Origin: Bacillus sp. RO3
GTDB taxonomy: Bacteria; Bacillota; Bacilli; Bacillales; Bacillaceae_B
Assembly (NCBI RefSeq): GCF_012911895.1
Contig: NZ_JAAXCV010000028.1
Location: forward strand, 62,001 to 126,000
Direction of reading: 5' to 3'
DNA length: 64,000 bases
Shown in pieces: positions 7,150-10,430 of the stretch. The notes beneath the pieces are model-generated. The model did no database searches. It was not told the origin of the DNA and worked only from the letters and a program-made list of their open reading frames with translations. A program made the translations under genes and the position numbers. How positions within the stretch are numbered: the first letter of the stretch is position 1; every line of letters starts with the position of its first letter.

Positions 7150-7345
7150 TTGCTATGAAGGATCAATAAGTACTTGCTGCTCGTAAGCGACCAGGGATGG
7201 TGAAAGCCTGGAAAGCAAGGAAACGGCAATCCCGAGCTATTTTACATGTAAAAGTGGGTATGCATGAACATGTGTATCAACTAGGGTGGAACCGCGAGTA
7301 TCAAGCTCGTCCCTAGGCTATTTGCCTAAGGACGAGCTTTTTTAT
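7150..7345 (+). promoter_or_regulatory. Glycine T-box riboswitch
   Basis: Leader that senses uncharged tRNA-Gly and antiterminates the synthetase gene. The universal T-box sequence AGGGTGGAACCGCG is at 7283-7296, which pairs with the tRNA acceptor end. The terminator has arms AGCTCGTCC (7304-7312) and GGACGAGCT (7330-7338) followed by six or more T. A GGC glycine specifier candidate lies at 7225-7227 in an A-rich Stem I loop. The Stem I boundaries were judged by eye. Confidence 0.93.
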
Positions 7346-7381
7346 TTTAGTTACATATATGATGAAAAAGGAGTGACTTTT

Positions 7382-8755
7382 ATGTCAATGGAAAAAGTAG
7401 TGAATTTAGCCAAGCATCGGGGATTTGTATTCCCTGGGTCGGAAATTTACGGTGGTCTCGCTAACACATGGGATTACGGACCGTTAGGTGTAGAACTAAA
7501 AAACAATATTAAAAAAGCCTGGTGGAAAAAATTCGTTCAGGAATCCCCATATAACGTGGGTCTTGATGCAAGTATTCTAATGAACCCCCAAACCTGGGTA
7601 GCTTCCGGTCACGTTGGAAACTTCAACGATCCAATGATTGACTGTAAGCAATGTAAAACACGTCATCGTGCTGATAAAATCATCGAGAATGCCCTTGAAG
7701 AAAAAGGAATCGACATGATCGTTGACGGCCTTTCCTTCGATAAAATGGAAGAAATCATCAAAGAGCATGATATTGCCTGTCCTGATTGTGGAAGCCACGA
7801 TTTCACCGATATCCGCCAATTTGATCTCATGTTCAAAACCCACCAAGGTGTAACGGAATCTTCTACAAATGAAATCTATTTACGCCCTGAAACGGCACAA
7901 GGAATCTTTGTAAACTTTAAAAACGTTCAGCGTTCCATGCGTAAGAAAATGCCTTTTGGTATTGCACAGGTCGGAAAGAGTTTCCGAAATGAAATTACAC
8001 CTGGAAATTTCACATTCAGAACACGTGAATTCGAACAAATGGAACTGGAATTCTTCTGCAAACCTGGTGAAGACCTGGAGTGGTTCTCTTACTGGCGTGA
8101 ATTCTGTAAAAACTGGTTATTAACACTTGGTATGAGTGAAGATAATATGCGCTTGCGCGATCATGACCAAGATGAATTATCTCACTACAGTAATGCGACG
8201 ACGGATATAGAATACAAGTTCCCATTCGGCTGGGGAGAGCTTTGGGGCGTGGCTGATCGCACAGACTTTGACCTGAAGCGTCATATGGAGCATTCAAATG
8301 AGGACTTCCACTACATGGATCCACAAACAAATGAAAAATATGTTCCATACTGTATCGAACCTTCCCTGGGAGCAGACCGTGTAACTCTTGCATTCCTCTG
8401 CGATGCTTTCGAAGAAGAAGAGCTTGAAAACGATTCACGCACAGTGCTACGTTTTCACCCGGCACTGGCTCCGTTTAAAGCAGCCGTCCTGCCGCTCTCC
8501 AAAAAACTGTCTGACGATGCATTCAAAGTATATGAAGAACTGTCACAAGATCTTATGATCGACTTCGACGAAACGGCATCAATCGGAAAACGCTACCGTC
8601 GTCAGGACGAAATCGGTACACCATACTGTATCACATTTGACTTTGACTCACTAGAAGACCGTCAAGTAACCGTACGTGACCGTGACACGATGGACCAAGT
8701 CAGAATGCCCATCAGCGAAGTAAAAGCATTCTTACAGGGAAAAATTAAGTTTTAA
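7382..8755 (+). CDS. glyQS: Glycine--tRNA ligase, single-chain (eukaryote/archaeal type)
   Basis: Class II aminoacyl-tRNA synthetase that charges tRNA-Gly. The 457-aa protein begins [21 protein letters not shown], contains a CKQCK...CPDCG zinc-like insertion near residues 80-140, motif 2 ([21 protein letters not shown]) and motif 3 ([10 protein letters not shown]), and ends with an anticodon-binding domain. ATG 7382 follows AAGGAG by eight bases; the upstream in-frame codons lie inside the T-box and are rejected. It stands alone on the plus strand where B. subtilis has the two-subunit glyQ-glyS between recO and ccpN. Confidence 0.97.
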
Positions 8756-8758
8756 ACC

Positions 8759-9441
8759 CCTAAAGCGGAGGCGGCTCGTTCAGAGGCGACAAGCATAAGA
8801 CGACCCTGCCGGAAAGGCGCTCTTTGCCTTTTTGACAGGGTTGACTTATGACCTCGAGCCTCTAGCCGCCGGAGCTGGCAGAATCCTAAAGCGGAGGCGG
8901 CTCGTTCAGCCCCGACAAGCATATCTGGAAAATCCCTGAAGGCGCTTTTTGCCTTTAGGGATTTTTTAGATATGACCTCGAGGGGCTAGCCGCCGGAGCT
9001 GGCAGAACCTAAAGCGGAGGGGCTTTGCCCAGAGGCGACAAGCATAAGTCAAACATACCGGAAAGGCGTTCTTTGCCTTTTTGGTATGTTTGACTTATGA
9101 CCTCGAGCCTCTAAGCCCCGGAGCTGGCAGAACCTAAAGCGGAGGCGGCTCGTTAAGAGGCGACAAGCATAAGACGACCCTGCCGGAAAGGCGCTCTTTG
9201 CCTTTTTGACAGGGTTGACTTATGACCTCGAGCCTCTAGCCGCCGGAGCTGGCAGAACCTAAAGCAAAGGGGCTTTGCCCAGAGGCGACAAGCATAAGTC
9301 AAACATACCGGAAAGGCGTTCTTTGTCTTTTTGGTATGCTTGACTTATGACCTCGAGCCTCTAAGCCCCGGAGCTGGCAGAATCCTAAAGCGGAGGCGGC
9401 TCGTTCAGAGGCGACAAGCATAAGACGACCCTGCCGGAAAG
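8759..9441. repeat. Tandem array of five and a half ~123-bp palindromic repeats
   Basis: Copies lie at 8759-8881, 8885-9005, 9008-9130, 9133-9255 and 9258-9380, with half a copy at 9384-9441, separated by AA or AAT. Each begins CCTAAAGC and ends CCGGAGCTGGCAG. Between these are three nested inverted stems around a constant apex (AAGGCG / TTTGCCTT) and constant joints CGACAAGCATA and TATGACCTCGAG. Stem 1 is GGCGGCT/AGCCGCC or GGGGCTT/AAGCCCC; stem 2 is AGAGGC/GCCTCT or AGCCCC/GGGGCT; stem 3 exists in three unrelated but self-complementary versions. The array fills the gap between convergent glyQS and recO. No coding frame is evident. Similar palindromic intergenic repeats exist in Bacillaceae as I recall, but I cannot assign a named family. 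Confidence 0.95.
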
Positions 9442-9569
9442 AGCTTGTTATGGTACATTTCGAGTTTTATTGGTCTATATTTACGTTTTTCGGCCACTTT
9501 CCCTGATTATTGTGTCAAAATGTGAACACACATTAAGAAATTCTCTTATAGGAACGAAAATAAAAAAAT

Positions 9570-9597
9570 GGACCCATTCCACAAAATGAATGGGTCC
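9570..9597. terminator. Terminator downstream of recO (bidirectional)
   Basis: Arms GGACCCATT / AATGGGTCC with A-runs on one side and T-runs on the other, 36 bases after the recO stop. It could stop transcription from either side. The 9442-9569 stretch before it holds no feature I can support. Confidence 0.85.
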
Positions 9598-9632
9598 TTT
9601 TATATAATCACAAGCAGCAAAGCTAAAATAAA

Positions 9633-10385
9633 CTAGAATAAGTCCTTTAGGTTATCCATCTGGTCTAAAAACCTTCTGGATTTTAATGTTAAACCTGAAT
9701 TTTCATCGTAATAAGTCCTGATTACCCGCTTCAATTGAAGTTTTGTTTCATCTTTTACCGAGATATTTCCCAATCGATTGATATCGAAATAGTAAAACAA
9801 CCTCAAAAGCTTCACGGTGCTTTGTGAGATCGGCATATGATGAGGATCTTCACTTAGGCAGCGATGACAGATGAATCCATTTTCTTTAAAGGAAAAGGAA
9901 AATTCACCGTCCGCTTCCCCGCACACTGCACATCCATTTAGATGAGGATACAATCCCAATACAGGCAGCATTTTCATTTCAAATATATGCATGAGTATCT
10001 CAGGATCATGGTCTTCATTTAAATATTGAATGGTCTTATATAGTAATTCAAAAAGAAAAGGGTTCGGCTTACGGTCCTCCGTCGCTTTATCGAGAAGATC
10101 CACGATGTAAGTGGCATAAGCCGTCTTAAACAAGTCTTCCCTTACATGTCTTAATGACTCAACCATCTCTCCCTGTTGAAGGGTACCAAGCCCACTTCCT
10201 TTAATGAAAAGGAAATAACCGTATGTAAACAATTGTGAAATGGCGGATAGACGGCTATTGGGTTTTTTGGCCCCTCTAGCCATCAATCCGATCTTTCCAA
10301 ATTCCCGTGTGTATATGGTAATAATTTTATTCGACTCACCGTAATGATTCGTTCTGATAACGATTCCTTCACACTTCTGTAGCAT
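9633..10385 (-). CDS. recO: DNA repair protein RecO
   Basis: Recombination mediator that, with RecR, loads RecA on SSB-coated DNA. The 250-aa protein has an N-terminal OB fold ([18 protein letters not shown]) and a C-terminal zinc-binding part with CAVCGEAD and ICHRCL. ATG 10385 follows GGGAGGTGG; an upstream in-frame start at 10427 has no ribosome binding site. It lies 45 bp after yqzL. Confidence 0.97.
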
Positions 10386-10430
10386 ACAGCCACCTCCCGA
10401 CTTCCATCCACCCGGGTGATGACACACTTA

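Follow-up and report, generated by a model that had tools for sequence, protein, structure and literature searches.

The window, a stretch of 64,000 nucleotides from a Rossellomorea genome (Bacillus sp. RO3), carries between glyS and recO an array of a long hairpin-forming unit (Table 1). Positions 8759-9444 hold five full copies of a 117-bp core and a 58-nt partial copy with a period of about 125, and TRF places the array at 8759-9441 with a period of 125 and 5.5 copies, in keeping with the tandem array of compensatory stems described in the original prediction. As delimited by a profile built from the array copies, the core runs over 117 nt from AAAGCGG to GGAGCTGG, 8-9 nt lie between cores, and the distance from the stop codon of glyS to the first core copy is 7 nt. 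The downstream gene, recO, was matched in 36 of 36 genomes of the genus. Past the partial copy and ahead of the terminator, positions 9444-9540 contain additional sequence with motifs like TTATTGGTCTATAT and CGGCCACTTT, and related TTATTGGGCCACTTT repeats are found at glyS-recO in two congeners (L047 and L059); this sequence is probably another intergenic repeat.

Table 1. Features of the glyS-recO region (positions in the window)
Feature	Position	Strand	Remark
glyS (glycine--tRNA ligase), upstream gene	7286..8755	+	ORF; product name from sequence
Core copy 1, type A: CGGCT outer, AGAGGC middle, CCCTG inner stem	8762..8878	+	
Spacer CAGAATCCT between copies 1 and 2	8879..8887	+	CCT end equals upstream flank ...CCCCT
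Core copy 2, type B: CGGCT, AGCCCC, ATATCTGGAAAATCCC	8888..9002	+	
Core copy 3, type C: GGGCTTTGCC, AGAGGC, CATACC	9011..9127	+	
Core copy 4, type A	9136..9252	+	
Core copy 5, type C	9261..9377	+	
Trailing partial, core positions 1-58, cut just beyond the start of the apical hairpin	9387..9444	+	
glyS-recO terminator: A-run followed by a hairpin, inverted repeat TAAAAAAATGGACCCATTC/GAATGGGTCCTTTTATATA	9561..9606	.	
recO, downstream gene, antisense to the array	9633..10427	-	ORF; name from sequence

Fold and covariation of the unit

When folded alone, every copy of the array forms one long nested hairpin of about -60 to -69 kcal/mol, with z = -6 to -8 against dinucleotide shuffles, none of 200 of which is equally stable. 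The stem exchanges named in the original prediction are present in the sequence: the outer stem is either GGCGGCT/AGCCGCC or GGGGCTT/AAGCCCC, the middle stem either AGAGGC/GCCTCT or AGCCCC/GGGGCT, and the inner stem is of the CCCTG, CATACC or ATCCCT type. Covariation was evaluated on an alignment (A1) of 51 diverse full-length copies, which were drawn from three sequenced genomes and from neighbouring loci; most of these copies come from other sites of the genus. RNAalifold predicted 35 pairs in this alignment, 26 of them with two-sided compensatory changes. By a pair counter, 94.0% of the cells are paired as compared with 79% in shuffles, 265 cells as compared with 77 are altered on both sides, and the covariation score is 0.417 as compared with 0.144; none of 500 shuffles reaches any of these measures, and the score falls to about 0.11 if the partners are slid by one column. 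The joints CGACAAGCATA and TATGACCTCGAG are unpaired and conserved, and these joints and the apical GAAAGGCG..TTTGCCTTT are nearly invariant. The claim that a folded form is what is conserved therefore holds against all the shuffles and all the slid controls.

Which strand folds, and as which nucleic acid? With the mostly-G-T pairs excluded, G-T cells outnumber A-C cells 131:46, and recent changes between related copies lead from Watson-Crick to G-T pairs 42 times and to A-C pairs 10 times when read on the + strand, which points to the + strand as the folding one. It is to be noted that C/T changes exceed A/G changes at unpaired columns too, so that part of the G-T excess may be mutational. 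The orientation of the element to the neighbouring transcripts is mixed, being antisense to both in 19 cases, co-oriented with one and antisense to the other in eight, and co-oriented with both in six, and the G-T-tolerant strand is usually antisense to the neighbouring genes. Such inconsistent transcription of the + strand by the neighbouring genes argues for single-stranded DNA over RNA. Hairpin-templated correction of both arms together was considered as a source of the covariation and rejected: changes between strains comprise 80 single-arm and seven two-arm ones, and compensatory change is thus mostly stepwise.

Distribution and relation to known repeats

The element is by no means confined to glyS-recO. 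The genome of the window gives 74 blastn matches and, in a profile search, about 83 copies in 41 loci. A pattern scan of named genomes found it in R. aquimaris, R. vietnamensis, R. arthrocnemi and Rossellomorea sp. AcN35-11, and at least one match is present in 32 of the 34 congeners searched. At an order-wide cut-off of E <= 1e-4, the covariance model R1 finds full-length matches in 147 of 199 genomes and in 74 of 97 genera of the order, among which weak matches may be other hairpins and the best exceed 80 bits. In two complete congeners, 106 and 114 matches pass E <= 1e-6; two genomes from other families reach 115 and 43, and some genera have only one or two copies. The kinship with palindromic intergenic repeats of Bacillaceae, pointed to in the original prediction, is found at the level of the genome, the genus and the order. 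In the genus g11, single copies are located at atpG-atpD or in an rluB-resA-like region; there is then no fixed ancestral gene, and a conserved single-copy RNA gene was rejected as the ancestor. A copy between atpG and atpD, within the ATP synthase operon, was observed in two species of another family (L148, L152). Three contigs of the window's own assembly (C20, C23 and C29; loci L009, L014, L016 and L038) end inside the element, which thus breaks assembly. Phages, viral contigs and plasmids were rejected as carriers: phages gave no match, 2.9 million viral contigs gave one match at a contig end, and the element is almost absent from plasmids, a single plasmid-like replicon of 690 kb being the exception. 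The window has no Rfam match at the gathering score, and a looser threshold yields nothing but sub-threshold microRNA-like noise on the array. Literature searches by sequence motif and by topic retrieved no paper describing the hairpin repeat.

How does the element compare with repeats that have names? REP sequences and REPINs are palindromes of 20-40 bp, tagged with GTAG or CGTC at one end, that go with RAYT (TnpA-REP) transposases (PMC3733652, PMC2817692, PMC3116915). Like them, the element is an abundant, interspersed and non-autonomous palindrome; unlike them, it is 117 nt instead of 20-40 nt long and is also carried by genomes without a detected Y1_Tnp gene, and inspection of A1 finds neither GTAG nor CGTC at a stem end, the ends of the core being AAAGCGG/GGAGCTGG. 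BOX of Streptococcus pneumoniae, whose description also mentions ERIC, has a variable number of boxB between boxA and boxC, boxA-boxB(n)-boxC, and is likened to our element by description, as a small, composite and intergenic repeat that folds stably and contains tandem units in varying number (PMC3049150). The difference from BOX is that here the entire hairpin is the tandem unit, the ends of arrays are truncated, and the orientation follows replication; instead of the BOX order there are head-to-tail full hairpins with a 5' partial, and separate end modules are absent. ERIC, an enterobacterial palindrome of about 127 bp, is similar in length, palindromic nature and intergenic position but occurs in other bacteria and has another sequence, and we know of no tandem arrays or polar truncation of it. 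In PMC2267715, bcr1, Bant-1 and Bhal-1 are presented as intergenic stem-loop repeats of Bacillus genomes, Bhal-1 being 74 bp long with 36 copies, and by this description they are like our element. Going by the title of its original paper, bcr1 is reportedly confined to the B. cereus group. Group IIC introns insert just downstream of intrinsic terminators, a preference which the element resembles, but it has no Rfam intron match, its distribution requires no reverse transcriptase, and it is far smaller. As for terminal inverted repeats, a feature of MITEs, the ends of the element are only imperfectly inverted (AGC/GCT). The element is a widespread and apparently unnamed family of palindromic interspersed repeats of the REP/ERIC/BOX kind, lacking the REP and BOX features looked for and compared with the Bhal-1 group by description; we have not seen its polarity and replication orientation described for REP, ERIC or BOX.

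Gain, loss, polarity and replication

The glyS-recO site has no array in four congeners, for example L058, in which TAAAACC is directly followed by ATAAAAAACAGGCCC, and L045 has one 125-bp insert at this empty point. The empty site in the congeners adjoins the A-run of the terminator. In a recO tree, the empty genomes are scattered within the filled clade, beside close relatives with one to four copies. Because the three unit types (A, B and C) and the CAGA-CCT style of spacer are found again at this site in different species, we take the empty sites to reflect at least four complete losses and regard repeated insertion at one point as less likely. In three pairs of filled and empty sites, 125 bp are inserted without a clear target duplication (none in L021/L118, none clear in L045/L058, possibly ACAG in L017), and the element as inserted measures roughly 122-125 nt. 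Such clean insertions into empty sites make it unlike the remnant of an insertion-sequence end, an outcome which the original prediction had named as speaking against it. Arrays change their unit content within a species as well: the glyS-recO units are A B C A C in the strain of the window and B C A B A in G061 of the same species, with the partial at the same junction in both. Comparison of 38 arrays with G061 reveals that copy number often differs (1 vs 6, 1 vs 4, 2 vs 0) with an unchanged truncation point, and in the sister species G014 the array start is unchanged and the truncation point is different. The upstream and downstream flanks of two arrays are joined differently in G000 and G061 (L010 vs L098 and L112), which represents either recombination between arrays or misassembly.

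The arrays are polar. They start at core position 1 (95 arrays) or 2 (five) in 100 of 102 cases, the other two beginning at contig ends, and none begins with a truncated copy. At the other side, 66 of the 100 arrays close with an incomplete copy that can be recognised as derived from the array's own units. Of these 66 partials, whose lengths are lower bounds, 57 measure less than 45 nt and so do not extend past the base of the inner stem, as compared with about 20 under uniform truncation (binomial p = 5e-21; as the 100 arrays include those of related genomes, which share ancestry and are not independent, this and the other p-values are optimistic). No truncated unit was seen inside an array in the window genome. 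Moreover, at its 3' end the first spacer agrees with the sequence that flanks the array upstream at that site, with 75 consecutive matches as compared with 42 expected in 27 arrays, a value as high in none of 20,000 shuffles (p = 5e-5). The tandem copies were thus made in place, local flank included.

The + strand of the element is opposite to the leading strand, as inferred from GC skew of the sampled loci and not from a mapped origin, in ratios of 50:5 in G147, 20:1 in G161 and 31:7 in G061, for which the skew puts the origin near 1.1 Mb, and the bias is weaker in G017 (29:13) and G032 (32:17). As most genes lie on the leading strand, genes or terminators could themselves underlie this bias. 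Where the paired genes diverge or converge, so that their direction is neutral, the ratios are 15:1 in G147 and 9:2 in G061, together 24:3 (p = 5e-5), and of the three exceptions, two are copies embedded in another palindromic repeat. Tandem copies are more numerous at loci of the majority orientation than at the others, with 1.93 vs 1.15 (p = 0.017) and 1.81 vs 1.24 (p = 0.038), and 2.23 vs 1.33 (p = 0.17) in a third comparison. As judged from skew, the orientation of the element follows replication, not transcripts.

Many copies end beside an intrinsic terminator or another hairpin. In the window genome, an antisense terminator is located within 120 nt on the right of 15 of 36 arrays, and a sense terminator on the left of none of the 36. 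G147 has two subfamilies whose 3' tails are conserved, and where a terminator was detected, the antisense terminator lies 61-67 or 40-46 nt from the core (16 of 26 copies), a sense terminator being on the left in only 1 of 26; nearly all copies in this genome stand alone, keep a conserved 3' tail and lack a trailing partial. One G147 subfamily has a conserved 3' tail of about 62 bp with a DnaA-box-like TTATCCACA, terminating at terminators (L236, L242, L244, L246, L250, L264, L268, L269, L271 and L287). Another landing site for the hairpin element is a second palindromic repeat of about 130 bp that is present in several bacterial families, GCGGAAGG..CTCGACTCCTGCGGGA..GGACAGGTGAGACCCC..GCGGAAAGCGAG..CTGCAGCGGAAATCAAC. 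The element is found inside this repeat (..ACTCCTGCGGGA..GGACAG^GTGAGACCCC..), inserted at the foot of the inner hairpin or close to it, at five loci of the window genome (L017, L021, L029, L037 and L040) and at three in other genomes (L118, L147 and L153).

Possible ways of multiplication

How could such a hairpin multiply in place? Our tentative reading is that a selfish, non-coding and interspersed hairpin of DNA may well have expanded locally into the array, amplified by slippage of the nascent lagging strand. During lagging-strand synthesis, the new strand, which would be the + strand of the element, would be copied up to a hairpin in the template, such as an intrinsic terminator, and stall there. 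Having just copied the element, the stalled strand could fold into the long hairpin, and its 3' end would then fall back to a few bases before AAAGCGG and recopy the element. Each slip would add one unit, with a spacer composed of the 3' end of the element and a few bases of the local upstream flank, and recopying would often get no further than the base of the inner hairpin and so leave the trailing partial copy. Whole units might further be gained or lost by exchange between the repeated 5' arms, and loss would be the reverse slip. Pairing would be kept by amplification and retention of only those copies which fold well on the + strand. Thus, a single slip step could account for the head-to-tail arrangement, the spacer with its bases from the flank, the constant starting point, the orientation dependence and the reason why pairing is kept. 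That the nascent lagging strand folds back and thereby causes the expansion is our inference; its basis, established as far as sequence can establish it, consists of the structure, the polarity, the flank spacers, the replication orientation, the change in copy number from strain to strain, the total losses and, at many sites, the adjacency to hairpins or terminators. It is possible, but more doubtful, that the element is selfish DNA which expands without an enzyme of its own: it would then need nothing but a good fold on the nascent lagging strand, host replication would duplicate it, and the covariation would arise from selection for DNA that folds well, and not for an RNA. Dispersal falls outside the slippage model and would need template switching between stalled forks or an enzyme acting in trans.

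That a single-stranded-DNA transposase works in trans at forks, preferring hairpins or terminators, to move a non-autonomous MITE- or REP-like element, with the arrays as products of secondary recombination, is a possibility to be taken seriously. It would accommodate the clean 125-bp insertions into empty sites, where target duplication is not evident, and the repeated hits in the second palindromic repeat, at the same internal point in two families. The conserved tails of the G147 copies at near-fixed distances to terminators fit as well, and these tails and single copies look like ordinary transposition with defined ends, slippage alone giving no such tails. Orientation linked to replication is known for IS200/IS605 and is likewise in line with transposition. 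As to a REP-associated transposase, which the original prediction suggested looking for elsewhere in the genome, REP-type (Y1/RAYT-like) transposases are indeed encoded there, at three Y1_Tnp loci, but no element is near any of them, and no RAYT gene flanked by copies was found at these loci. Nor was a transposase gene found near the elements, and Y1_Tnp was not detected in seven genomes with at least 18 copies (G102, G106, G115, G118, G141, G158 and G161); RAYT was rejected as the mobiliser on these grounds. A transposase in trans also sits poorly with the near absence of the elements from plasmids and phages, and it leaves the polar partial copies and flank-derived spacers unexplained, which are what slippage of the nascent strand would produce.

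Retroposition of an RNA is improbable. An antisense transcript of the element, reverse transcribed from the nascent lagging strand by terminators in a group IIC-like manner, with early stops at RNA hairpins truncating the 3' ends, would fit the terminator adjacency, the orientation and the truncation polarity. However, RVT_1 is undetected in element-rich genomes such as G043, G053, G067, G147 and G161, and on this ground reverse transcriptase was rejected as the mobiliser; an RNA of this kind would call for the strand opposite to the G-T-tolerant one, and the window has no match to a group II intron or other Rfam family. Since G161 is rich in elements without detectable Y1_Tnp or RVT_1, neither of the two is required now. 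The structured RNA put forward in the original prediction is not especially likely either, the G-T-tolerant strand being mostly antisense and the orientation following replication instead of transcripts. An element that serves the host, either as a functional structured RNA or in cis-regulation from a 3' position, would suit the deep covariation, the strand-specific wobble tolerance and the position of some copies directly after stop codons, yet it is hardly to be expected with so inconsistent an orientation to transcripts, repeated complete loss at glyS-recO and copies per genome from one or two to more than 100. A candidate protein-binding or chromosome-organising site with replication polarity, suggested by the near-uniform orientation around two chromosomes and the conserved unpaired joints, is very improbable in view of patchy occurrence, one or two copies in some genera and frequent loss.

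A repeat carried by most of the sampled genera in a thoroughly studied group of bacteria is thus apparently nameless, and annotation, RNA discovery pipelines and assemblies meet it unrecognised. Strong covariation, as this element illustrates, need not imply a functional RNA. Slippage at hairpins is usually studied with artificial palindromes or triplet repeats; if lagging-strand slippage is indeed at work here, the orientation, local spacers and truncated ends of these arrays would be a natural record of it.
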